Part shown: piece after piece, positions 2,526 to 43,120 of the stretch | Numbering within the stretch: the first letter of the stretch is position 1 | Layout of the letters: every line of letters begins with the position of its first letter | Assembly (NCBI RefSeq): GCF_032191465.1 | Contig: NZ_JAQOUE010000001.1 | Location: forward strand, 806,001-870,000 | DNA: 64,000 bases | Reading direction: 5' to 3' | Origin: Candidatus Nitronereus thalassa | GTDB taxonomy: Bacteria > Nitrospirota > Nitrospiria > Nitrospirales > UBA8639 | Program-made: the position numbers and the translations under genes | The notes under the pieces: model-generated | Told to the model about the DNA's origin: nothing | Databases searched by the model: none | What the model saw: the letters and a program-made list of their open reading frames with translations, nothing else

Positions 2526-3785
2526 CTATTTTTTTCTCTTTTGAGGTTTCCGTTTTTTCTTTTTTTCCCTTTGCTCCTCCTCATCCTTCTCTATTTCTTT
2601 TCGCAATTCCTCCATACTGGGTTCCCCGCTGGGATGTGTTACCGTCAAGGCGTAATCCTGTTTCGTGAGTTTGATGACATCGATCTCTTGATCTAAAAAC
2701 CCTTGAATCTCCTCAAGCCGTGGCTTTTCTTCTTTGCTGCAGAACGAAATCGCGATCCCCTTTTTGACGCCACGCCCGGTTCTTCCTACACGATGTACGT
2801 AGTTTTCTGCCTTATCTGGCAAGTCATAGTTCAGCACATAATGCACATCGGGAATGTCGATGCCGCGTGCGCTGACATCGGTGGCGATTAAAATCTGACA
2901 GGCCCCGGCTTTAAAGGCCTTCATCACCTCAGCCCGGTCATGCTGATCCTTTTCCCCATGAATCGTTAGCGTGTCTATCCCGACACGACCCATCGCCTTG
3001 GCGACCCGTTCCGCGCGTACTCGCGTCCGGACAAACACGATCACCCGGCTCTCAGGATTATCAGTCAAGAAACGCTCAAGGAAAAACCGTTTATCATCCA
3101 TTTCCACGAACATCACATAGTGCGAGACATTTTTAGAGACACGGTTGTCCGGCGAGATTTGAATCCGGATCGCCGATGTTCTCACCTGAGAATACGCCAG
3201 TTTTTTGATGTCGGCATTGATGGTTGCTGAGAAAAAGAGCGTTTGATGGTGGTGTCGCAGCTTTCTTTTGATCGCATGAATATCTCGAATAAATCCGAGA
3301 TCGAGCATGTGATCGGCTTCATCCAACACCAGGGTTCGCACATGATTCAGCAGCACATACCCCTGACTGATCAGATCAAACAGTCGGCCGGGTGTCGTAA
3401 TGAGCACATCAATGCCCTTCTGAAGTGTGTGTATCTGCGGGTCCTGCTCAACGCCGCCATACATGGCAAACGCCTTGACCTTGGTGTGTTTGGAAAGTTG
3501 AGCAAAGACCTCTCCGATCTGCATCGCCAGTTCGTGCGTTGGCACCATGACAATACATTGGATACCATTGGAACGTTGGCTCCTTTTCCACTGGTCGATC
3601 TGATTAATGATCGGGATGGCAAAGGCTGCCGTTTTCCCCGTTCCTGTTTGGGCAATGGCCAGGACATCTTCCCCCGCCATGATCGAGGGCATGGCTTTAA
3701 ATTGGATGTCCGTTGTTCTGACAAACCCGAGTCGGGACAGGTTATTTTTCAAAGCATCTGAAATGGGATATTTTTCAAACTTCAT
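2526..3785 (-). CDS. DEAD-box ATP-dependent RNA helicase (RhlE/RhlB type)
   Basis: A 419-residue protein with the full DEAD-box set. It has a Q motif around Gln28, motif I AQTGTGKT (45-52), a motif Ia variant PTHELAMQ, TPGR, motif II VLDEADHMLDLGF, motif III SAT, a second RecA domain with IVFVRTR and ATDVSARGID, and motif VI HRVGRTGR. The C-terminus is a short acidic-then-basic tail ending in KKKKRKPQKRKK, which probably adds non-specific RNA affinity. Such enzymes unwind short RNA duplexes in ribosome assembly and mRNA decay. The ATG at 3785 follows GGAAACACC. It stands alone between the two modC copies, followed upstream by the HEPN-like gene. The specific paralogue cannot be settled from the sequence alone. 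Confidence 0.93.
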   Translation of the reverse strand: MKFEKYPISDALKNNLSRLGFVRTTDIQFKAMPSIMAGEDVLAIAQTGTGKTAAFAIPIINQIDQWKRSQRSNGIQCIVMVPTHELAMQIGEVFAQLSKHTKVKAFAMYGGVEQDPQIHTLQKGIDVLITTPGRLFDLISQGYVLLNHVRTLVLDEADHMLDLGFIRDIHAIKRKLRHHHQTLFFSATINADIKKLAYSQVRTSAIRIQISPDNRVSKNVSHYVMFVEMDDKRFFLERFLTDNPESRVIVFVRTRVRAERVAKAMGRVGIDTLTIHGEKDQHDRAEVMKAFKAGACQILIATDVSARGIDIPDVHYVLNYDLPDKAENYVHRVGRTGRGVKKGIAISFCSKEEKPRLEEIQGFLDQEIDVIKLTKQDYALTVTHPSGEPSMEELRKEIEKDEEEQREKKKKRKPQKRKK

Positions 3786-3846
3786 GGTGTTTCCATACGT
3801 CTTCTTCTCATTAAATCCGGCACAACAGGGAAGATGAATCAGTCCA

Positions 3847-4623
3847 TCACTCAGAAAGTCTTGCGCCTAAGTGCTTCATGAAACTGGAAGCATGATTGTA
3901 TATCGCGAGCGCACCTGTGTCGTTATATTGTTCATGATTGTGTATCACAAAATTTCGATAGGCATCCTGTAAAAGGGTCAAGTGCATGGCCGCTTCTGAA
4001 TAGAATCGGTGGTCACTTTGCCAAATTTCAGGCGTGAACTCTTTAGGCAATTGATCAATTTCATGAATCTTGTCTTGGATTTTCTTCATGATCAACTCCC
4101 AGTTTATTTGTTCATCGGACAGGTGAAAATGTTTGGCAAGAACACGCAGTCCAATTTCTATAACGCGCATGAGATGGAATACGCATGCCGTGTTTCTTGA
4201 TGTTGCATAAGATTTACCCGCCTCTTCAATATCTTCTCTCGCAGACTCAAATCGAGAAACGTTTACGCCAAATGTTTCCAATGGTTTCAAATAGAACTGC
4301 TGTTTTTCCGTCGGGATGCACAGAAATAGTTTCTCTGAAATTTCATCATACAGGCACTTGTAGAATTCCTTGTATTGAAGAGCCAACTCATCATACGTAG
4401 GTGAACCATCAATAGTTTTTTCGATATCCTCGAGTTTAGTGACGCAACTCTTAAGTGGTACCCCCCTACAATCCTCCTTAATTTCCCCAACTTCCTCCCT
4501 CGACGAAGCCAATGTCTTGTCGTTGATTTTTTCATAACGATACTCTGCCCTCTCAATGAGCCGAATCACGCTCGTCAACCTGGAACTAATGGCAATATAC
4601 CGGTCTACTGAAAATTGAAGCAT
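3847..4623 (-). CDS. HEPN-like domain protein of unknown function
   Basis: A 258-residue, largely helical protein. The N-terminal half has coiled-coil character (residues ~1-120). The C-terminal half resembles HEPN helical bundles: a helix with ACVFHLMRVIEIGLRVLAKHF, then a final helix carrying RNFVIH (Arg223 to His228). That fits the R-x4-6-H motif that forms the RNase site in many HEPN proteins. HEPN domains occur in toxins, abortive infection proteins and defence RNases, but also in non-catalytic forms. No nucleotidyltransferase partner lies next to it; its neighbour is an RNA helicase on the same strand, 61 bases downstream. An RNA-related or defence role is inference only. Confidence 0.6.
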   Translation of the reverse strand: MLQFSVDRYIAISSRLTSVIRLIERAEYRYEKINDKTLASSREEVGEIKEDCRGVPLKSCVTKLEDIEKTIDGSPTYDELALQYKEFYKCLYDEISEKLFLCIPTEKQQFYLKPLETFGVNVSRFESAREDIEEAGKSYATSRNTACVFHLMRVIEIGLRVLAKHFHLSDEQINWELIMKKIQDKIHEIDQLPKEFTPEIWQSDHRFYSEAAMHLTLLQDAYRNFVIHNHEQYNDTGALAIYNHASSFMKHLGARLSE

Positions 4624-4849
4624 GTACTATACCCTCACCAATAAAGAAGGTTTATTGTTCTACAGAGCGGCCAACTTAGGGCAATCAGTTTCACATCATT
4701 TACAGGCACTTCCTCCTCAAGAATCACGACTGTATTCTCTCAGGATATAGGTGGCAACACCAACATAAACGTCACAGTAGAATATAAAAATATGAAAAAA
4801 CCTTCTGTGCAAGAGGTAAAAATCAAGAAGACACAATTCTTAACCTCGG

Positions 4850-5926
4850 CTAACTCAACGCCACCGCTTTGAAGTGGGCATGGACTTTTTGGCCGGCGTG
4901 GAGGTTAAGTTCGTGGAAGGATTTTCTGGTGATCATGGCGAGGAGCGGGCAGCCAACGTCTAGTTTTACTTCCATGGCGTATTGATCAATTGGAGATTCT
5001 TCGATTTCAATCACCGTGGCTTCCAAAGAATTGAGCACGCTGCTGGAAGCCGCTGGTGCTCCAACCACGACACTCACATCGCGGGCATGGATTTGGACTC
5101 GCAACAGGGAACCAACGGCCATTTCCTGTTTTGGGATGAAGAGTGATCGTCCGAAAAACTCCACACGGGTTAAACCAAACTCTGGCTCATGTTCCGCGAC
5201 CCTGGTTTCAAGAATGGCGCCGACCATGTTCGGTTCGACCAGTCCCGGCAGATCTAACCTCGCAAAGACTTCCTGAATCGTTCCAGTAGCTGCCACCTTT
5301 CCATTTTTGATTAAGACCATGTGATTGGCCAGTTGTAACATTTCGTTGAGATCATGGCTGACATAAAGCACGGGAATTTGTAAATCTTGATTGAGACGTT
5401 GAATGAACGGAAGGATTTCTTTTTTTCGTTCTTGATCAAGCGAGGCTAACGGTTCGTCCATCAAGAGCAATTGTGGGCTAGTGAGCAAGGCTCGGCCAAT
5501 TGCTACCCGCTGTTGCTCTCCTCCTGAAAGATGTTGGGTTCGACGGTCAAGAAGTTTGTCCAAACCTAACAAGTCGACCACTTGGTCAACGTGTATTTGT
5601 CGTTTGGATGGTTGAGTTCTCTTCATCCCATATTCAAGATTCTGTTTGGCATTGAGATGGGGAAACAATCGAGCATCTTGGAATACTAGCCCAACTCGTC
5701 TCTTTTGAATGGGAAGAAAGTTCTTTTCGTCTTGCCAAATATTCTTGCCGAATTTGAGATACCCTTTCGGCGCACGCGTTAATCCAGCGATGCATCGTAG
5801 TAATGTGGTTTTTCCACTCCCTGACGCTCCAAAGATCGCCACGGTTCCATCAAGCGGCATGATACATTCCACATTCAAATGGAAACCTGGATATTCAATC
5901 TGAAATTTGGCGTCGAGTTGATTCAT
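4850..5926 (-). CDS. modC: Molybdate/tungstate ABC transporter ATP-binding protein ModC
   Basis: A 358-residue cytoplasmic ATPase that powers molybdate import with ModB. Visible features are Walker A GASGSGKTT (33-41), Q-loop VFQDARLFPHLN, signature LSGGEQQRVAIGRAL, Walker B LLLMDEPLASLD, the H-loop VSHDL, and a C-terminal MOBE/TOBE domain (about 285-356) of the type that binds molybdate. The length is normal for ModC. Its start codon overlaps the modB stop (ATGA), so translation is coupled. It is the last gene of the porin-modA-modB-modC run. The 3' 983 bases are duplicated at 1321-2303. Confidence 0.95.
   Translation of the reverse strand: MNQLDAKFQIEYPGFHLNVECIMPLDGTVAIFGASGSGKTTLLRCIAGLTRAPKGYLKFGKNIWQDEKNFLPIQKRRVGLVFQDARLFPHLNAKQNLEYGMKRTQPSKRQIHVDQVVDLLGLDKLLDRRTQHLSGGEQQRVAIGRALLTSPQLLLMDEPLASLDQERKKEILPFIQRLNQDLQIPVLYVSHDLNEMLQLANHMVLIKNGKVAATGTIQEVFARLDLPGLVEPNMVGAILETRVAEHEPEFGLTRVEFFGRSLFIPKQEMAVGSLLRVQIHARDVSVVVGAPAASSSVLNSLEATVIEIEESPIDQYAMEVKLDVGCPLLAMITRKSFHELNLHAGQKVHAHFKAVALS
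4856..5838. repeat. Direct repeat copy 2 (inside intact modC)
   Basis: The partner of the repeat at 1321-2303, with same orientation and identical length. The two copies bracket the RNA helicase and HEPN-like genes. Homologous recombination between them would delete about 3.5 kb and leave one intact modC. Confidence 0.9.
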
Positions 5927-6606
5927 GCGACGTGAACCGGCAGTCGCCTATTAATCGTATACACAACCGTCAGAATGACAAAACTAAATATGAGCAGAAA
6001 CGCAGAAAGAAAATGCGCTTGGGAATATTCCAGCACTTCGACGTGGTCATAGATCGCAATCGAAAGAACTTTCGTCACGCCGGGAATATTGCCACCTACC
6101 ATCAGCACGACTCCGAATTCGCCAAGGGTATGCGCGAAACCCAAAACAATTGCGCTTAAATAACCACGGATCGCCATCGGCGAGGCTACGCTAAAGAAAG
6201 CGTCGAGCTTTGAAGCCCCCAATGCCCAGGCGGCTTCTAACGGTTTTTTGCCGACGGCTTCGAATGCTCCATGTAGAGGTTGCACCACAAAGGGCAAGGA
6301 ATAGAAGGACGAGGCGATTACCAACCCGGTAAAGGTAAAGGAAAGCGGTGATCCAGTTAGGTCCATCCAAAGTCCGCCAATGGGGCCAAGAGGTCCAAGG
6401 GCAATAAGAAGATAAAACCCGAGGACCGTCGGAGGTAACACCAGGGGGAGCGCCACGACCGCTTCGACCATGGTTCTGAATCGCGACTTCGTGAAGGCGA
6501 GCCACCATGCTAATGGTGTTCCGACAATCATTAAGACCAACACGGTCACTCCTGCTAATTGCATGGTGAGCCACAAGGGCCCCCAATCCATTTCAGGAAA
6601 ATTCAT
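5923..6606 (-). CDS. modB: Molybdate ABC transporter permease ModB
   Basis: A 227-residue inner-membrane permease with about five hydrophobic segments. It carries the ABC-permease EAA loop, seen here as PLEAAWALGASKLDAFFSVASPMAIRGYL, which docks on ModC. PLVLPPTVLGFYLL near residue 55 is typical of ModB/CysT. The ATG at 6606 follows AGGGGA. It starts 21 bases after modA and overlaps modC by four bases, so the three genes form one transcription unit. Molybdate or tungstate is the expected cargo from family membership. Confidence 0.95.
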   Translation of the reverse strand: MNFPEMDWGPLWLTMQLAGVTVLVLMIVGTPLAWWLAFTKSRFRTMVEAVVALPLVLPPTVLGFYLLIALGPLGPIGGLWMDLTGSPLSFTFTGLVIASSFYSLPFVVQPLHGAFEAVGKKPLEAAWALGASKLDAFFSVASPMAIRGYLSAIVLGFAHTLGEFGVVLMVGGNIPGVTKVLSIAIYDHVEVLEYSQAHFLSAFLLIFSFVILTVVYTINRRLPVHVA

Positions 6607-6627
6607 CCCATTCCCCTAGGAAAATTC

Positions 6628-7389
6628 TTATTCAACCCCATACCCCAACTGTTCAATGAGGGCTTGAGCTTTGGGGCTTTTGAGATAATGTACAAATTCA
6701 ATAGCGGCGATATTGCTTTTTCCTCTTGTCAGCAGCACCGCTTGTTGACCCAACGCATCATGAAAACTCTCCGGAACATCCCACCGGCTGCCCATGCCAT
6801 TGATCTTGGGGTCCAATACCTGCGCAAGGGCAACAAACCCAAGCTGCGCATTGCTTGAATAGACAAACTGAAAAACCTGTCCGATATTTTCGCCTTGAAC
6901 AAGTCGGCCCTTCAATTGATTCCACAGGCCCATCGCTTGTAGCGTAGTTTTCGCAGCCAAGCCGTAGGGGGCCGTTTTCGGATTCGCAATGGCCAAACGA
7001 TTAAACCCGCCTTTTGCCAAGACTGCCTTTCCATCACCTTTAATCAGATCAGGGTTTGCGCTCCACAAGGTCAGGCGTCCGACCGCATAGGTAAATCGGC
7101 TATGGGGTACTGCGAACCCCTCATCTTCGAGCACCGCTGGTCGTTGCGCGTCTGCAGACAAAAACACATCAAAAGGAGCACCATTTTTAATTTGCACATA
7201 TAGCTTGCCACTCGATCCCGAACTGACAAGTGTCTTATGCCCGCTATCTTCTTCAAAATGTCTCACAATTTCGTTTAGCGTAGATCGAAAATTGGCCGCG
7301 ACCGCAATTCGTACCTCTCCGGCATTGGCCATAACCGGAAGCCACTGAGAAACTGCTATAAGAATAACAACCAAATTTTTGATCAACAT
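6628..7389 (-). CDS. modA: Periplasmic molybdate-binding protein ModA
   Basis: A 253-residue exported binding protein. After a signal peptide (hydrophobic LVVILIAVSQWLPVMANA) the mature start VRIAVAANFRSTLNEIV is characteristic of ModA. So are the oxyanion-binding SSGSSGKLYVQI and GAPFDVFLSADAQRP segments, and a later FVALAQV stretch. It captures molybdate in the periplasm for ModB/ModC. The gene follows the barrel protein after 91 bases and precedes modB by 21 bases. The start ATG has no strong ribosome site. Tungstate binding is possible and not distinguishable here. Confidence 0.95.
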   Translation of the reverse strand: MLIKNLVVILIAVSQWLPVMANAGEVRIAVAANFRSTLNEIVRHFEEDSGHKTLVSSGSSGKLYVQIKNGAPFDVFLSADAQRPAVLEDEGFAVPHSRFTYAVGRLTLWSANPDLIKGDGKAVLAKGGFNRLAIANPKTAPYGLAAKTTLQAMGLWNQLKGRLVQGENIGQVFQFVYSSNAQLGFVALAQVLDPKINGMGSRWDVPESFHDALGQQAVLLTRGKSNIAAIEFVHYLKSPKAQALIEQLGYGVE

Positions 7390-7480
7390 GTGATGTGTTA
7401 GCGTACAAAGGCCTCAGGATTAAGGATGAGAATAATTTATAACTGGCAATTTGTCGGCCCTACACCTATCGATTTGATTA

Positions 7481-9019
7481 TTAAATTCGAAATGTTGTTT
7501 GAAAATAAAAATAATCCGTATCGATATTTCCCCCCACGGGCAATCCCGCCGAGGCAGGGAGCCGGTCAAAATAACTTCCCTTAAACCAATGAAAATACCC
7601 TGCATCGAATTCTAAATTCTTATTCACGGTCCACTGAGCTCGCAGCTCCACATCATGGCCCAAGAAATTTCCGGAGCCACCAGTAGCATCAAAGACACCG
7701 CCATTGGTGGCCGTGACAATAGGGGAGATGCCAAACGCACCTCGAGATGTGGCCAGATACCAGACCCTATGCTTAAGTTGAACTTTCCAACCCTTGGAGG
7801 GCTCTACAATCACCCGCCAGCCTGGCGAACTGATATTGGTACGAAAAAATGGGCCCAAATTACCCGTGGGCATGTATTCAAACCGTCTCCCGCCAAAGAG
7901 CGTATCAAAGGCCGAACTTTGACTATCGCCCGCATTGCGATCTCCACTCGCATAATCATAATGAATCACCACACGAGGCGACCACGGCAGATTAAACGTA
8001 TACCCAAGGTCAATATGTTGAAAGTGCGCAAAATGATCGATGCTTCCCCGCTTGCCGGTTTGCCACACGGTCTCAACTTCGTAATCGGCACGACCGATTT
8101 CCGGCTCTTCATAGACACGAAGACCAAAGGTGGAAAATGTTCTTTGTTGGTTCAATGCCGGACTCTGCTGATCATTCAGACCAAAATAATAGACATTCAA
8201 TCGCATCCAGGGCATTTGCAAAGTTTCGCCATACACTCCCCAGAAGAGATTCCGTTGGGATTGTTCATCTAGCCGTACATCATCCCGCAAAACCGGCTCA
8301 ACGAGAAAGATCCGCACACGCCAGTCTTGGCCCTTGGCCAATTGTCCATGCATTCCATCAAACGCATTGGTGGTATTGCGATATCCATTTCTCGCAATCA
8401 ACCGTCGGCGACCGAAATCCATGGTAAGACGTCCAAAATGGAAATCGGCCCGAAGCCCAGTGGCCAAAAAATTATTGGCTGTCGCCGACACCATCAACTG
8501 CAGAATATCCATTTCATTCCGGATCGAATCGTTCACAAAATCTCCAGGGTCGTCGAGATGCGTACGGGAATCTTGCCCCTCGAAAAGAAATTTAAAGGGT
8601 CCACCTTGGAGCCCCACCCGGACCCGAGATCGTTGTTCAATTTGCCCATCGGTCTGGCCCATAGCCTGGCTGGGCCGCCACGGATGGTCGTACACTTCAA
8701 ACCGTGTTCGATGTTCAAACCCCAGATCCAACCACTGTGGCAGATGTAAAGCCGCCTTCACATAACGGTTCCACTGCCAATCTCTGGGTCGAACCAGCAC
8801 GGCATCAGCCGATTCCGCAAGAGGCATCGAGGATGACCCTTGAATTCTCTCCACCATGCTCTGAGGAAAAAGATTCGGGCTTGGTGAAGAAACTTCTTGC
8901 GCAATTTCGCCTTCTGCGCCAGATCCCAATGCAGGAGGCACAGAAGGCAAGCCGAAAAATACACTCCAACAAAACACGACATATGTGGCGATTCGGTTAC
9001 CACACAAAAGTCTTCTCAT
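7481..9019 (-). CDS. Outer-membrane beta-barrel protein, alginate-export superfamily
   Basis: About 512 residues with a signal peptide (hydrophobic IATYVVFCWSVFFGLPSV) and a proline-rich linker. A long barrel domain follows from LDLGFEHRTRFEVYDHPW. Alternating strands such as RSRVRVGLQGGPFKFLFEGQ, the GRLTMDFGRRRLIARNGYRNT segment and a C-terminal FYFQTTFRI-type strand ending in Ile are typical of the alginate-export (AlgE-like) fold. Members are porin-like channels with varied cargo. I chose the ATG at 9019, preceded by GGGG at six bases; an ATG at 9031 is possible. It heads the modABC run, so I infer a molybdate-linked outer-membrane channel. Alginate export is not supported by any neighbour. 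Confidence 0.85.
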   Translation of the reverse strand: MRRLLCGNRIATYVVFCWSVFFGLPSVPPALGSGAEGEIAQEVSSPSPNLFPQSMVERIQGSSSMPLAESADAVLVRPRDWQWNRYVKAALHLPQWLDLGFEHRTRFEVYDHPWRPSQAMGQTDGQIEQRSRVRVGLQGGPFKFLFEGQDSRTHLDDPGDFVNDSIRNEMDILQLMVSATANNFLATGLRADFHFGRLTMDFGRRRLIARNGYRNTTNAFDGMHGQLAKGQDWRVRIFLVEPVLRDDVRLDEQSQRNLFWGVYGETLQMPWMRLNVYYFGLNDQQSPALNQQRTFSTFGLRVYEEPEIGRADYEVETVWQTGKRGSIDHFAHFQHIDLGYTFNLPWSPRVVIHYDYASGDRNAGDSQSSAFDTLFGGRRFEYMPTGNLGPFFRTNISSPGWRVIVEPSKGWKVQLKHRVWYLATSRGAFGISPIVTATNGGVFDATGGSGNFLGHDVELRAQWTVNKNLEFDAGYFHWFKGSYFDRLPASAGLPVGGNIDTDYFYFQTTFRI

Positions 9020-9060
9020 TTCCGGCCCCATTCCCCATTAAGATTTAGGTCTCAGACAAA

Positions 9061-9108
9061 GAAAAAAATTGTAATTTATTAAAGACATATTATCAAGTTT
9101 AAATTACA
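9061..9108 (-). promoter_or_regulatory. Predicted promoter and operator of the porin-modABC operon
   Basis: Read on the minus strand, TTGATA (9091-9096) and TACAAT (9068-9073) are separated by exactly 17 bases, a good sigma-70 promoter. A perfect 9-base inverted repeat, TGTAATTTA (9070-9078) and TAAATTACA (9100-9108), has one arm on the -10 box and the other just upstream of the -35 box. A regulator bound there would be expected to repress. The core ATTGTAAT recurs at the promoter of the adjacent regulator gene. Confidence 0.6.
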
Positions 9109-9290
9109 TTATTCATTTTTATGGTTTGCGCCAAAAAGTGCACCTAGAAAAACTGTAGATAGATCAGGAATAAGTACTGAGAAAGAAGTAGGACCTCAGG
9201 TAAACAGAGAGGTCAAAGATGGATTATTTGAGAAAGGATGGGCAACAGAGAATAAGAGGGAATAGTGGGTAATCAACTGCCGACTCAGGT

Positions 9291-10475
9291 TTACTCAATA
9301 ATTTTCCCAATTTCCTTGGAATCATATCCCCCTAACGCATCAATTTCTTGTCGAAACCCATGAGTCACGAGCGTATCCAAAAACATCTGCATGCCAGGAT
9401 GGACACGAAGATACCTTGTCGGGATCACGAGATCATAACGTTCTTCTTGCAACGGAATAAAATCGAGGTCAAAAAAGTGCCCAACGCCTTGCGCACCAAT
9501 TCCCACATCGGCCTTTCCCTCGACGATGGCCCGGCCCACACCCAGCTGGGAGGAGCACTGTGCGTCGTATCCACGCACCACACGACTGGCAATTCCAGAT
9601 TTTTCCAATAAATAGTCCAGCAAGAGCCTGGCTCCGGCCCCCGGCTCACGATTCATCATGCGCAGATCCGGTCTGGCTAAATCTTCAATACCACGAACCG
9701 TTTTAGGATTCCCCTTTTTGAGCAATAGCCCCTCTTGCCATGCAGCGAATCGTACGACCGTCACGGCATGACCCTTTAAATACTTACGCAAGAACGGCAG
9801 ATTGAAATCGCCGGATCGGTGATCCACCACATGGATACCCGCGACGTGCACTTCGCCTCGCTTTAACGCCTGCAAGGCCGCCAAGCTTCCCATGGTCCAA
9901 CCCAGCACCGACGCATCTCCCCCATGCTGACGGATATGTTCCCCGGCTAAAAATATGGCTGGATCGCATCCTGCGACCACCACTTGATGTTCAATGTCTC
10001 GTTGAGGTCTTAACAACTGGATATATACGCGCTTTGGATTTTGGGGGGCACAAGATTGCGTCCCCACCCGCCCTAGCTGCAGCCCATCGGCAGGCACGGT
10101 ATAATTCAACATTTCCCCCAAATCAGACACCGGCTTGGCCAACAATCGTCCATCAACAGACGCGACTTTCACCCTAGCCCTTTCCCCCATCTTCGATTCG
10201 CCACCCACCATCTCCGCCTCAATAATGTCCACGTCGGATTCAAAGGAAAATAAATCCTCCACGGTACACCCCAGATGGGACGCCAAGCGTAATGCAACTT
10301 CTGTCCCAGGAAGATATTGGTTCATCTCGATCGCATACAGGGCTTGACGAGTGATTTTTGTCCTCGCCGCCAGTTCTCCTTGGGAAAATCCGACTGCCAC
10401 ACGACGTTCGCGCAATCGATTCGTCACGCCGGCAGCTTGAATAGATTTTTGTTTGCCTTTTGAGGTTTTAGTCAT
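9291..10475 (-). CDS. XRE-type HTH regulator with periplasmic-binding-like sensor domain
   Basis: A 394-residue one-component regulator. Residues ~17-70 form a Cro/XRE helix-turn-helix (VAVGFSQGELAARTKITRQA ... LASHLGCTVEDLF). From ~185 onward there is a type II periplasmic-binding-like domain (AGCDPAIFLAGEHIRQHGG, later DLARPDLRMMNREPGAGARL and GIGAQGVGHFFDLDFIPL) without signal peptide, so it probably senses an intracellular ligand. I prefer ATG 10475 over upstream starts because a predicted promoter begins transcription there. It lies directly upstream of the porin-modABC operon on the same strand and shares an operator core with it. Control of molybdate uptake is inferred; the domain type is firm. 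Confidence 0.85.
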   Translation of the reverse strand: MTKTSKGKQKSIQAAGVTNRLRERRVAVGFSQGELAARTKITRQALYAIEMNQYLPGTEVALRLASHLGCTVEDLFSFESDVDIIEAEMVGGESKMGERARVKVASVDGRLLAKPVSDLGEMLNYTVPADGLQLGRVGTQSCAPQNPKRVYIQLLRPQRDIEHQVVVAGCDPAIFLAGEHIRQHGGDASVLGWTMGSLAALQALKRGEVHVAGIHVVDHRSGDFNLPFLRKYLKGHAVTVVRFAAWQEGLLLKKGNPKTVRGIEDLARPDLRMMNREPGAGARLLLDYLLEKSGIASRVVRGYDAQCSSQLGVGRAIVEGKADVGIGAQGVGHFFDLDFIPLQEERYDLVIPTRYLRVHPGMQMFLDTLVTHGFRQEIDALGGYDSKEIGKIIE

Positions 10476-10481
10476 GATTTT

Positions 10482-10511
10482 ATTGTAATGTTTACTTACC
10501 ATTTTTACAAT
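10482..10511 (-). promoter_or_regulatory. Predicted promoter and operator of the HTH-PBP regulator
   Basis: On the minus strand TTGTAA (10505-10510) and TACAAT (10482-10487) are 17 bases apart. A perfect 7-base inverted repeat, ATTGTAA (10482-10488) and TTACAAT (10505-10511), coincides with both boxes. The A of the ATG at 10475 is seven bases past the -10 box, so the mRNA may be leaderless, in line with the missing ribosome site. Autoregulation is the simplest reading. Confidence 0.5.
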
Positions 10512-10679
10512 TAAAAATAATATTACTGATCTCCCCACCCGCCATCATTTATCCAACACCATGCCGCCCCTCCTGTTGGCTACGTACCGAGGCTTCCCAC
10601 TTGACCTAACAACGCTATTGGCATAAAAACGTCTCCGACCAATTAATCATTTATCCCTTGACACAAAGAGGTTTCCTGC

Positions 10680-12461
10680 ATGCCCGCTAAAGCGACAGCT
10701 CCAACACGCCTCCCTCAATGGACCTTAAAAGATCTACTGGCCAATCCGGACAAAGACCTGGAAACGATCTCCCAAAACCTCAACAAAAACATCACGGCGC
10801 TGGAAAAGCTTCGCCCATCTCTCAATAACCACACCTCCCCAAAAACATTTCTCAAGGGGCTTTCCCTTATCGAAGAAATTGCCGCCTTGAGTTCTCGATT
10901 AGGAGCCTACTCAAGCCTCTGGTTTGCTCAAAACACGACCAACCAAAAAGCGCGCGCCTTTGATGCCACCGTCAAGGATAGATTAGCCAATGTGTCCAAT
11001 CGAGTGCTCTTTTTCGACCTTTGGTGGCAAAAACATCGCGGCAAAGCCGCAAAACAACTACTGACGCATACTAATTCCATTCGCTATTATCTCACCTCGC
11101 TACGTCGGCTTACCCCGCACACGCTGACCGAACCCGAGGAACGAATTATCAATATTAAAAACACCACGGGCCGTTCGGCACTCGATACACTGTACGATGT
11201 TCTGACCAATGCCTTAACCTTCAAATCTCCTGAAAAAGAAGCACGAACGCCCCTTTCACGCGAGCAACTGTCTGTCTTCTTTCGCCACCCCTCGGCAATC
11301 AAACGCAAACAAGCTTACCAGGAATTGCTGAGCGTCTATTCGGGCCATGCCGACATGTTGGGAGAAATTTACAAATCACTCGTCATTGATTGGAAAAACG
11401 AAGGCATTGACCTCCGGCATCACGCTTCCCCTGTGGCCGTACGCAATACCTACAATGATATTCCCAATGAAGCCGTCACGACCCTCCTGGGCTGTTGCAG
11501 AAAAAACCGCCACATTTTCCAAGAGTTTTTTCGCCTGAAAGCAAAAATCTGCAAGATCAAGAAATTGTCACGCTATGATATTTACGCCCCGACCAAAAGT
11601 GAAAAAATTTCCTATCCGTTTGAAGAGGCCAAGAAACTGGTCTTCCAAGCCTATAAGGGCTTTTCACCAAAATTGGCGACCCTTGCTCAACAGGTCTTTG
11701 AAGATCGACATATCGATGCTGCCACCACTCCCGGCAAGGCCGGCGGGGCATTTTGTTACAGCGTCCTACCAAAGCTCACCCCCTACGTGATGCTGAATTA
11801 CACGGGGGATGCCCGTGACGTCGCCACGCTTGCCCACGAACTCGGACATGCCGTGCATGGCATGATGGCCAGACACCACTCCATCTTTACCTTTCATTCA
11901 ACCCTGCCCCTCGCAGAAACAGCGTCGGTATTTGGCGAACAACTCCTCTCGCAAGCCTTGCTCCAAGAAGTCTCGAATCCTCGCATGAAGCAACGCTTGC
12001 TCCTTGGGCAACTCGATGACCTTTATGCCACCATCCTGCGACAGGCCTATTTTGTCGAATTCGAAAACCAAGCCCACGAACAGATCGCCCAAGGGGCCAC
12101 CGTCAACGGCCTTGCCAACACCTATCGGAATTTGCTGAAGGAACAATTCGGCCGAGTCGTGACCGTTCCAGATGAATTTCAATGGGAGTGGATTTCCATT
12201 CCCCACATCTATCGAAGCCCGTTTTACTGCTATGCCTATAGTTTCGGGAACCTGCTGGTCTTAGCTCTGTACCAGCGGTATCAGAAGGAAGGAAAGTCTT
12301 TCATTCCTAAGTATTTGGAACTATTGGCGGGCGGTGGTTCTAAAAGCCCTCAAGACTTGCTCAAACCACTCAGACTCGACATGTGTGCGGAAAAATTTTG
12401 GCAATCCGGATTCGACCGTATTGAGGGCATGGTCGAAGATCTAGAGAAAACGATACGGTAA
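10680..12461 (+). CDS. pepF: Oligoendopeptidase F, M3 family zinc metallopeptidase
   Basis: A 593-residue cytoplasmic metallopeptidase that cuts short peptides. The zinc-binding HELGH is at about residue 386 within LAHELGHAVHGMMA, with the third ligand Glu in LPLAETASVFGEQLL about 27 residues later. An upstream GGAFCYSVLPKLTPYVMLNY segment is typical of the PepF branch. Length fits the family (about 600). The ATG at 10680 follows AGAGG at a good distance. It is divergent from the HTH-PBP regulator, with 141 bases between them from the ends given here to hold both promoters. Confidence 0.95.
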   Translation: MPAKATAPTRLPQWTLKDLLANPDKDLETISQNLNKNITALEKLRPSLNNHTSPKTFLKGLSLIEEIAALSSRLGAYSSLWFAQNTTNQKARAFDATVKDRLANVSNRVLFFDLWWQKHRGKAAKQLLTHTNSIRYYLTSLRRLTPHTLTEPEERIINIKNTTGRSALDTLYDVLTNALTFKSPEKEARTPLSREQLSVFFRHPSAIKRKQAYQELLSVYSGHADMLGEIYKSLVIDWKNEGIDLRHHASPVAVRNTYNDIPNEAVTTLLGCCRKNRHIFQEFFRLKAKICKIKKLSRYDIYAPTKSEKISYPFEEAKKLVFQAYKGFSPKLATLAQQVFEDRHIDAATTPGKAGGAFCYSVLPKLTPYVMLNYTGDARDVATLAHELGHAVHGMMARHHSIFTFHSTLPLAETASVFGEQLLSQALLQEVSNPRMKQRLLLGQLDDLYATILRQAYFVEFENQAHEQIAQGATVNGLANTYRNLLKEQFGRVVTVPDEFQWEWISIPHIYRSPFYCYAYSFGNLLVLALYQRYQKEGKSFIPKYLELLAGGGSKSPQDLLKPLRLDMCAEKFWQSGFDRIEGMVEDLEKTIR

Positions 12462-12599
12462 AACGGTCAAGAGAACTGAAACCACTATCTTGAGGAAGGG
12501 AAACCTCCTTGATTTAGAGGGTTCGGTTGCGTTAGCCTTCCCCGTTTGTTGTATCGCCTAGGGAAAAACCTTTCGTTAGCGTCACAGGGAGTCCAGTAC

Positions 12600-12842
12600 A
12601 TGATGGAAAGTGCCTATGTGCTCATTAACGTGCTTCCAGGCCAAACGGCCAATGTCAAAAATTTACTGTCACAAATTCCTGAGATCAAAGTGATTGATGC
12701 CTGCTGGGGCAAACCGGATATTTTTGCCCGTGTCGAGGTGACGAGCCAAGAAGCCCTCACCCAACTGGTCCTAACCCGTATTCATGCCATCGAAGGTGTC
12801 TCCCAAACAGACACACACCTCGTCTATACGCTTCCGGAATAG
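12600..12842 (+). CDS. Stand-alone Lrp/AsnC ligand-binding (RAM) domain protein
   Basis: About 80 residues with the alpha/beta RAM fold of Lrp/AsnC regulators: SAYVLINVLPGQTANVKNLL, then EIKVIDACWGKPDIFARVEV and a final VSQTDTHLVY strand. No DNA-binding domain is present. Such single-domain proteins bind amino acids or act as partners of full regulators. A double ATG at 12600/12603 follows CAGGGA, which fits better than the upstream in-frame start at 12546. It follows pepF on the same strand, 138 bases later, which hints at a link with amino acid or peptide metabolism, though this is inference. Confidence 0.82.
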   Translation: MMESAYVLINVLPGQTANVKNLLSQIPEIKVIDACWGKPDIFARVEVTSQEALTQLVLTRIHAIEGVSQTDTHLVYTLPE

Positions 12843-12940
12843 ATTTTAAACATGAAGCGGAAAAATTAGCGGCGGCGCTGAGCCTCCACGCCGGCTCCTT
12901 TATCCTTTGTATTTTTCACGCTTCACGTAACCGGCTTGCC

Positions 12941-13402
12941 TCAGTAGATACCCGCTTCACGCTGCAGCCACCGAACATACTGAATTACCAACTGCACATC
13001 ATCTGAAGACGCACCTTCGATTTTTGGCATATTGCCAAATTCCCAATGATGCGCCCGCACCCCCTGAGCCGCAGCACGAAGAAAGGCAATATCCGCATGA
13101 TGTGAGGGCTCATAAATCTTGTGCACCAACGGCGGCCCATTCGTTGTTCCCCGGGCATGAACTCCATGACAACGGGCACAGAAGGTATTGAACCGTTCTT
13201 CTCCAGATTGAAACTCCTTTGGCACCTCGATATCCGCACTCTCCGATACCACAACTCCAGCAGATGTTGCCCCATTTTTTTCCATAACCGCATGAGAGGG
13301 ATGGTCCCCCTCATCAGCCTGGGAGCAACCCAAACCTAGCCCGCAAACGAAGACAACACCCAAGCACCAACTTTGCCAATGATGTAATTGTTCTTTTCTC
13401 AC
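12941..13402 (-). CDS. Cytochrome c lipoprotein, single heme
   Basis: A 153-residue exported protein. The signal peptide ends in a lipobox (GLGLGC, Cys26), so the protein is probably lipid-anchored in the periplasm. The heme motif CARCH (75-79) is followed by GTTNGPPLV, and a probable axial methionine lies in FGNMPKIEG (about 122), as in small class I cytochromes c. A spacer of about 45 residues separates lipid and heme domain. Likely role: electron carrier, partner unknown. Its neighbours are on the same strand (queC 135 bases upstream) but unrelated in function. Confidence 0.9.
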   Translation of the reverse strand: MRKEQLHHWQSWCLGVVFVCGLGLGCSQADEGDHPSHAVMEKNGATSAGVVVSESADIEVPKEFQSGEERFNTFCARCHGVHARGTTNGPPLVHKIYEPSHHADIAFLRAAAQGVRAHHWEFGNMPKIEGASSDDVQLVIQYVRWLQREAGIY

Positions 13403-13537
13403 CTTAAAACCTCAACATTTCAGTGAAAAACAGCATAGAGAAAAATAGAAACAGGCGGTCTTTTGTGTTCTATACTTTCCCGATCATGAGTCCCATATCC
13501 ACAAATAGAACCAATGTCTGACCTATCTGCCAAAATC

Positions 13538-14221
13538 CTACCCAACCTGATATGACACTGGATCTTTTTTCCCAGCCTGTCGGAATCCTTCCAATCGAAT
13601 AAGACAACTATCACATTGCCCACAGGCCACCCCTTCTTCATTCGGATCATAACAGCTATGAGTAAGTTCGAAGGGCACGCCCAACTCGATCCCCCGTTGA
13701 ATGATTTGTGCCTTGCTGAGTTGAAGGAGTGGGGCCTTGATTTCAACGGAGCTCCCTTCCACGCTCATTTTTGTTCCCAGTCGTGCGACCTGTTGAAAGG
13801 CTTGCAAAAATTCTGGCCGACAATCAGGATAACCTGAATAATCCAACACATTCGCTCCGATAAAAATGCTTTTGGCTTTGGACACTTCGGCATAGGCCAA
13901 GGCCAATGAGAGAAAAATCGTATTCCTGGCCGGGACGTAGGTATTAGGAATCCCTTGCTTTCGATCCTTTTCTGATCGATGCTTGGGAACCGTGCCTTGC
14001 CCGACGAGTGCCGACCCTCCAAACACGCTTAAATCCAGGTGTAGAATCTTGTGCTCTTTGGCCCCGATCCAAGCCGCGATTTTCTTAGCACAGGCAATTT
14101 CAACATGATGCCGCTGGCCATATCCTACAGTGACCAAAAACAGAGCCCAGCCTTCCTCTTTGGCGATGGCTGCGGCTACCGTGGAGTCCAGCCCTCCGCT
14201 GGCTAGCACTACTGCGTTCAC
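13538..14221 (-). CDS. queC: 7-cyano-7-deazaguanine synthase QueC
   Basis: A 227-residue enzyme that converts 7-carboxy-7-deazaguanine to preQ0 with ATP and ammonia, in queuosine synthesis. The N-terminus has the PP-loop ASGGLDSTVAAAIA (7-20). The zinc site near the C-terminus is seen as SCYDPNEEGVACGQCDSC with four cysteines. VPARNTIFLSLALAYAE is diagnostic. Length is normal. It follows the DksA-like gene by 271 bases on the same strand; no other queuosine gene is in the window. Confidence 0.96.
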   Translation of the reverse strand: MNAVVLASGGLDSTVAAAIAKEEGWALFLVTVGYGQRHHVEIACAKKIAAWIGAKEHKILHLDLSVFGGSALVGQGTVPKHRSEKDRKQGIPNTYVPARNTIFLSLALAYAEVSKAKSIFIGANVLDYSGYPDCRPEFLQAFQQVARLGTKMSVEGSSVEIKAPLLQLSKAQIIQRGIELGVPFELTHSCYDPNEEGVACGQCDSCLIRLEGFRQAGKKDPVSYQVG

Positions 14222-14492
14222 CGGACCCTCTCACCAATGGCGAGTTTGCCACAATCCTGCGGATCAGTGTTTCTATCATAGAAGAAAACGTCACACGTCC
14301 ACGTCATAAAATCAGAGTAAAGATTCCTCTTTCGATTAGCAATGGGAACACGGATTCACGAGAATACGAGAAAAAACCGGCGTGGAAAGGAGGAGGATTA
14401 ACTAGGAAATCAGGGATTTCGTGAAAAGTATTAGGACAGACCTGGAAGGCCCAGCCAGAGGAGTAACTATTCTAAAGCACAAAGCACAAGGA

Positions 14493-15119
14493 TCAAATTC
14501 GTTGCTCTCCTTTTTCAATTTTTTCCAGCAATTCCATGCGAGATTGGCATTCGATACAATAACGAGCAAACGGGAGCGCGGCCAAACGTTTCTCACTGAT
14601 TTCCGCATCACATTCCGCACATTTCCCGTAGGTGCCTTCATCCAAACTTGATAAGGCTTCTTCGATCATCTGCCGCTCACGATTCCGCATTTCTTGTAAT
14701 GAAATCCCCATCTCACGCTCAAGATCAAACAATGCCTGATCCCCGCTATCCATTGCCGATTCCAATCGACGCTGTTGATCATCAGTCAACGATTGCCCCA
14801 ATTGTTCACGCATTTGTTTCATCACGGCATCCCGTTTGGCCAACAATATCGTCCGCAAGGCCTTGGCACGAGCGCCCAACACCACAGGACGCTTGGTTTG
14901 GGTGGCCACATCATTCGCAGGTCGAGGCGAGGAAGACTCGGCCTTGGTTTTGGGCTTGGGCTTTGACTTTGGTTCAGAAGAGGATTTGGTCACGGGTTTA
15001 GAAGATGGTGTTCGTTTGGCCACGGCCTTGGAAGTTTTGGTTGCAGCGGTTTTCACACTTCCAGCCTTGGTCGATTTACTGGTAGCCGCCGTGGTTTTTT
15101 TCGCGGGTTTGGCTTTCAT
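14493..15119 (-). CDS. DksA/TraR-family zinc-finger protein with long basic N-terminal tail
   Basis: 208 residues. The first ~75 are Lys/Ala/Ser/Thr-rich with repeated KPK and SKP units, resembling eukaryotic histone H1 tails. Residues ~85-200 form the DksA/TraR fold: a coiled coil (LLAKRDAVMKQMREQLGQSL ... EREMGISLQEMRNRERQMIEEALSSLDEGTYG) followed by a zinc finger with CAEC and CIEC pairs. DksA-like proteins enter the RNA polymerase secondary channel. The acidic coiled-coil-tip residues of true DksA are not evident, so activity in ppGpp response is uncertain. The basic tail might bind DNA or polyphosphate. Upstream is apt, same strand. Confidence 0.88.
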   Translation of the reverse strand: MKAKPAKKTTAATSKSTKAGSVKTAATKTSKAVAKRTPSSKPVTKSSSEPKSKPKPKTKAESSSPRPANDVATQTKRPVVLGARAKALRTILLAKRDAVMKQMREQLGQSLTDDQQRRLESAMDSGDQALFDLEREMGISLQEMRNRERQMIEEALSSLDEGTYGKCAECDAEISEKRLAALPFARYCIECQSRMELLEKIEKGEQRI

Positions 15120-42526: not shown

Positions 42527-42898
42527 TTACGATAAGGCGGAAAAGGTCGAATAATCTTCGTTGGTCTGAAACATTGGAATGAGTTTGGAAAAATTTACAT
42601 TTTCCAAAATATTTCTTACCGTGTCTTGGGGATTCACGACAATCACATTTCCCTTAAAATCCTGGAAAGCCTTCACCATGAGAGCTAATACCCCTAAACC
42701 AGCACTATCAATAAAAGAAACCCCTCGCATATCTACAATCACTCGCCTCGTTTGGGCTTCCTGATATTTTTCCATGACATCCTTTAACCCGTTCCTTGCA
42801 AACATATCCAGCCTTCCTGAAAGAACAAGGACGGGCACTCCCTGGGTTTCTCGCTCTTTTATCACCATGGCAACTTTAAAGTTCCATTGTTGGTTCAT
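42527..42898 (-). CDS. STAS-domain anti-sigma factor antagonist
   Basis: 123 residues. A SpoIIAA-like STAS domain: VPVLVLSGRLDMFARNGLKD, VIVDMRGVSFIDSAGLGVLA with the phosphorylatable Ser65, and FKGNVIVVNP. Such proteins bind anti-sigma kinases and release a sigma factor. No kinase or phosphatase partner is adjacent, so it acts in trans. The transposase lies 152 bases downstream. Confidence 0.9.
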   Translation of the reverse strand: MNQQWNFKVAMVIKERETQGVPVLVLSGRLDMFARNGLKDVMEKYQEAQTRRVIVDMRGVSFIDSAGLGVLALMVKAFQDFKGNVIVVNPQDTVRNILENVNFSKLIPMFQTNEDYSTFSALS

Positions 42899-43120
42899 CC
42901 AGTCTGCTTAAGCGATATAGCCATATTTTCGTATCTAGAAATACTTATCGGCCTGCCATGCCCATTCTTAATTTTTTCAAGAGGTTATTTAAATTCGGAC
43001 AAACACATTTTCCCATTGGCTCAAAAATAAAGCTAAACTTCCCTTTATTTTCAACATGTTAGAAGAGCATGCTTATAACAAAATGAGAAAGGGAATATAA
43101 ACCTGGTAACCAATAAGGGA

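Follow-up and report, generated by a model that had tools for sequence, protein, structure and literature searches.

A candidate one-component regulator of molybdate uptake and a conserved composite element at the porin-modABC promoter of Candidatus Nitronereus thalassa

The key enzyme of nitrite-oxidizing Nitrospira, nitrite oxidoreductase, is a molybdenum enzyme, and our literature search found no report on the control of molybdate uptake in these bacteria. The 64-kb stretch of the Candidatus Nitronereus thalassa genome analyzed here (the "window") carries a molybdate importer operon downstream of a gene that encodes a putative DNA-binding regulator. Which protein controls this operon, and through which DNA sequence? 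The genes concerned are:

9291..10475, minus strand: regulator, HTH_3 (residues 21–75) and PBP_like PF12727 (residues 179–369) (Pfam)
7481..9031, minus strand: outer-membrane porin-like protein, Alginate_exp PF13372 (Pfam, 8.8e-61)
6628..7389, minus strand: modA (TIGR01256, 2.1e-63, above the curated cut-off)
5923..6606, minus strand: modB (TIGR02141, 2.5e-70, above the curated cut-off)
4850..5926, minus strand: modC with TOBE domain PF03459 (TIGR02142, 6.1e-129, above the curated cut-off)

The porin gene, followed by modA, modB and modC, lies downstream of the regulator gene, and its place beside modABC suggests that the porin takes part in molybdate entry. In the regulator, an HTH_3 domain (E 5.7e-11, 42.7 bits) is joined to a PF12727 domain (E 1e-59, 201 bits against a cut-off of 27). 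The nearest solved relative of the HTH is CylR2 (2xiu, E 5.7e-15; phmmer to CylR2, 7.6e-9); CylR2 and the small Cro/C1 repressors share this type of DNA-binding domain with the regulator but have no ligand domain. Recognition-helix residues T42, R43, Q44 and A45 are invariant across two families, that of the window and Nitrospiraceae proper (f3). Residues 94–393 align with the C-terminal part (model positions 351–644) of the MoeA-type molybdopterin protein PRK14498 (E 1.4e-60), which is a MoeA with a C-terminal PF12727 domain; DVU0951 is such a protein (PMC10102598). Unlike MoeA, the regulator has no Mo-insertase domain, and a DNA-binding domain stands in its place. In the AlphaFold (AF2) model of the regulator (mean pLDDT 85.5), residues 162–388 align best with ModA (3gzg; Z 17.4, rmsd 3.0, 211 aligned), but phosphate-binding proteins tie with ModA to within 1 Z unit and sulfate-binding proteins also score close. 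When sequence profiles of the ligand domain and ModA were compared, the match was not significant, and the ModA ligand residues could not be mapped by profile alignment. The structure match thus supports a tetrahedral-oxyanion fold and leaves the ligand undecided; from this predicted fold together with the gene context we infer that the protein senses molybdate.

The two promoters of the locus had drawn attention in a preliminary description because of inverted repeats and a shared 8-mer:

9096-9068, minus strand: porin promoter TTGATA-17-TACAAT
9070-9078/9100-9108: 9+9 inverted repeat, TGTAATTTA
10510-10482, minus strand: regulator promoter TTGTAA-17-TACAAT
10482-10488/10505-10511: 7+7 inverted repeat, ATTGTAA

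The 17-base spacers, the TACAAT -10 boxes and both repeats are present exactly where that description placed them. The 8-mer ATTGTAAT, which it took for the operator core, occurs only twice on the two strands of the 64 kb (at 9068 and 10482), and each copy is an ATTACAAT -10 region read on the opposite strand. When these AT-rich 60-base stretches were dinucleotide-shuffled 5,000 times, a 9+9 repeat arose in 6% (P=0.06), a 7+7 repeat in 40% (P=0.40), both together in 2.3%, and any 8-mer common to both stretches in 70% (0.70). Repeats and a shared 8-mer in a single genome are therefore weak evidence, not clearly above chance alone, and were rejected as proof by themselves. Comparison with relatives separates the two repeats: the 9+9 repeat sits on a conserved dyad axis (below), whereas the 7+7 repeat is lost in a same-genus relative, which has TTGCAA there. 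The 7+7 repeat, mostly near-complementarity of -35 and -10 (TTGTAA and TACAAT), was for these reasons rejected as an operator. Nor did ATTGTAAT hold as an operator core, since the exact 8-mer is not conserved and most relatives have ATTACTAT. Because of the 7+7 repeat (10482-10511), TTGTAA-17-TACAAT reads the same on either strand, and the promoter could also drive transcription toward the divergent oligopeptidase gene at 10680. Two further 9+9 inverted repeats lie in AT-rich stretches at 42561-43080.

What is conserved at these promoters is a longer pattern. When 25 distinct promoters from the family, each in front of porin or modA and each with a 17-base spacer, were anchored on -35 and -10, they had in common a 40-bp composite element consisting of GTAA, TTGACa, a GTAA in the spacer, and then TTAC(T/A)AT. 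The upstream GTAA starts 11 bases before the -35, and its G (u11) is kept in 20 of the 25; the second copy occupies spacer positions 5–8, with its G (s5) also kept in 20/25; and the TTAC overlaps the -10, whose usual hexamer is TACTAT and whose C is kept in 19/25. Conservation at u11 and s5, which lie outside the promoter boxes, comes close to that of the -35 G and C, and neither u11 nor s5, nor the -10 C, would be expected to be conserved in a plain sigma-70 promoter. A distance of 21 bases (∼2 helical turns) separates the two GTAA copies. On the best dyad axis the upstream GTAA is matched with the -10 TTAC, and it is on this axis that the 9+9 repeat lies; the second-best pairs the spacer GTAA with the same TTAC. 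The conserved candidate operator, as judged from the alignment, is this 40-bp composite element and not the exact 8-mer or the 7+7 repeat. In the window it appears twice:

9068..9107, minus strand: porin-mod promoter with composite element; GTAA 9107-9104, -35 TTGATA 9096-9091, GTct 9086-9083, TTAC 9074-9071, -10 TACAAT 9073-9068
10482..10521, minus strand: regulator promoter with weaker element copy; -35 TTGTAA 10510-10505, GTAA 10499-10496 and 10495-10492, TTAC 10488-10485, -10 TACAAT 10487-10482

At the regulator promoter, AAGTAAACATTACAAT is identical in the window and in the same-genus relative G002 (genus g1), with diverged flanks; TAAACATTACAAT is found in the G001 porin promoter too. 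With its ATG 6 bases past the -10 box (10475-10487), the regulator gene is predicted to give a leaderless mRNA, and in most of 38 Nitrospiraceae orthologs (L094–L131) the ATG is 5–11 bases past the -10 (mode 6–7).

A weight matrix trained with the window's genus left out was scanned over both strands of the window. It placed the porin promoter at the top (26.0 bits) and the regulator promoter as second-best locus (14.3 bits), and the best unrelated site reached 4.3; this ranking sets aside a reverse-strand match (17.0) that overlaps the porin site and belongs to it. When the -35 and -10 columns were masked, the remaining bases shuffled and the non-promoter columns scored, P was 2e-5 for the porin and 0.0037 for the regulator promoter, and 2e-5 and 8e-5, respectively, in G002. 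The porin promoter thus has a strong element and the regulator promoter a weaker, though still significant, one, and the earlier idea of an element shared by both survives in the form of the conserved composite (matrix ranks 1 and 2), not of the exact 8-mer. In genome-wide searches by sequence pattern, the porin promoter was the only exact match to the composite pattern in the 4.0-Mb genome; a search of 11 relatives that allowed one mismatch gave six matches, of which five lay at mod promoters, and no control matches. A pattern built from the two window sites matched exactly those two only, a post hoc result that is not counted as a test. A genome scan with a single sequence gave no match, and an alignment-based scan gave matches.

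Regulator matches are present in 39/49 genomes of the family and 192/270 of the class, and the named records among them are nearly all Nitrospira- or Nitrospirales-type MAGs. Mod genes lie at most 8 kb from the regulator in 40 of the 46 testable ortholog loci (those where 5 kb or more flank it on either side); the order is regulator, porin, modABC in genera g1 and g2 and convergent in g9, and in g10 the regulator is mostly unlinked to mod genes, yet the g10 mod promoters keep the element. With a leave-one-genus-out matrix the mod promoter outscored the rest of the locus wherever placed, weakly in L034. In g1, g2 and g8, 11 of 13 loci had their best site, the mod promoter aside, in the regulator upstream region (g2 scores there being low); by the same matrix this region was not the best remaining site in g9, g10, g4 or g6, and in g9 and g10 the regulator's own upstream region carries no element, so having both sites is not general. 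The self-regulation first suggested would therefore be lineage-specific, fitting g1, g2 and g8 only, where the regulator immediately precedes the mod operon, and neither g9 nor g10. In g2 (L034–L043) the sequence upstream of the regulator holds a long palindrome, perfect or nearly so (up to TATACATGACATATGTCATGTATA). In L049 (G041), from a genus with an unlinked or distant regulator, an element of 25.9 bits at 2384-2423 lies ∼170 bases before modBC of the same contig. In Nitrospiraceae proper, an element precedes the regulator, and the regulator leads the mod cluster. The regulator-promoter motif there differs, being a differently spaced GACA-type element, GaCATaATAC-TTGACA-(GACA)-TTGCTATA; since TRQA is invariant in both families, the half-site may tolerate GTAA and GACA, or the operator logic may have shifted.

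How does this regulator compare with known systems? It would resemble ModE in role (control of modABC by internal molybdate) but has other DNA-binding and sensor domains. The proposal that control does not lie with ModE was supported: the genome has no match to TIGR00637, searched for the ModE N-terminal winged HTH, although the same search was positive in an E. coli control, and the 64 kb hold no ModE box of the E. coli type, even when 3 mismatches are allowed. ModE was rejected on both counts, as was riboswitch control, because an Rfam search of window positions 3000-15000 found no Moco riboswitch or other element at the gathering threshold. The regulator appears nearest to the TaoR kind, which PMC11980592 describes as one-component HTH + PBP-like regulators of tungsto/molybdo genes; the TaoR work of Rajeev et al. 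2019 is cited there and in PMC10102598. Both join an HTH to a PBP-like domain in one component and are associated with Mo/W genes. According to PMC11980592, TaoR-like proteins carry HTH_17, an excisionase-type domain; the protein here has HTH_3 (the XRE or Cro/C1 type), and HTH_17 is not among its matches. Compared with TaoR by description, it further differs in its targets (porin and modABC), its GTAA/TTAC candidate operator and its occurrence in Nitrospirota. Since the DNA-binding domain differs, the protein is not filed as a TaoR member, though it would work like one. PF12727 and HTH_17 searches found no TaoR-type HTH_17+PBP protein in the genome: there is only one strong PF12727 protein, and all HTH_17 matches above the cut-off fall in frames of 71–124 aa. 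A TaoR-type protein as the regulator here was rejected accordingly.

The simplest alternative, that two strong, AT-rich sigma-70 promoters happen to share a -10 box and that there is no operator, fits the frequency of the shared 8-mer and the 7+7 repeat in shuffles and the symmetrical promoter that the latter forms on both strands. It is nevertheless very improbable, because u11 and s5 are conserved nearly like the -35 G and C, the columns left after masking of the -35 and -10 are significant at both promoters in both genomes, and the composite pattern is nearly unique per genome. A real element might instead be bound by another protein while the HTH-PBP protein controls something else; it is by location only that the two are paired. 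In G011 (L092) no regulator was detected at the syntenic place, yet the porin-mod operon is kept. Its mod promoter has TTTACT for TTGACT, has lost the upstream G, and still scores 14.9 (scores are low, too, at sister promoters that have the regulator), which leaves room for another factor at the element; the unlinked regulators and element-bearing mod promoters of g10 point the same way. Against this stand the conserved regulator-mod linkage, the second occurrence of the element, in g1, g2 and g8, at the promoter of the regulator itself, and the finding of no ModE, TaoR-type protein or known RNA element in the searches above, and we regard a different binder as improbable.

A less distant alternative, though still rather unlikely, is that the regulator does bind the element and acts as an activator, or that its ligand is a different oxyanion (phosphate, sulfate or tungstate only) or a Mo-cofactor precursor. 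The tie between phosphate-binding folds and ModA and the MoeA match of the C-terminal part would suit this, as would TaoR, which reportedly activates one target and represses another. The overlap of the element with the core promoter, on the other hand, makes repression most likely, and the gene context is molybdate uptake.

We therefore favor the reading in which the protein with a Cro/C1 HTH and a ModA-like domain binds the composite element and represses porin-modABC and itself, probably in response to molybdate or tungstate, and consider it likely. The one-component regulator, its internal ligand domain, the porin-modABC link and the shared element of the preliminary description are retained, and the ATTGTAAT core and 7+7 operator are not. 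Conserved across related genera, the element is the DNA most likely bound by the regulator. In the mechanism that we infer, a cytoplasmic regulator would bind GTAA/TTAC half-sites that lie beside and across the core promoter of porin-modABC (-35, spacer and -10), and molybdate (or tungstate) on its PBP domain would alter how tightly it binds this composite operator. Ample internal molybdate (or tungstate) would lead to repression of porin and ModABC synthesis, limiting uptake across both the outer and inner membranes; in the window's genus the regulator would also bind the weaker copy at its own promoter and so limit itself.

The result is a candidate regulator with a defined candidate operator and a single main target, which makes it directly testable. 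In Nitrospira-type nitrite oxidizers this regulator probably controls the molybdate-uptake genes in place of ModE. Whether this unnamed Cro/C1 HTH + ModA-like class is the standard Mo-uptake regulator of nitrite-oxidizing Nitrospirales, with an operator unlike that of ModE and with porin and ABC importer jointly controlled, seems to us an evenly balanced matter; if it is, a dedicated porin would belong to high-affinity molybdate uptake.
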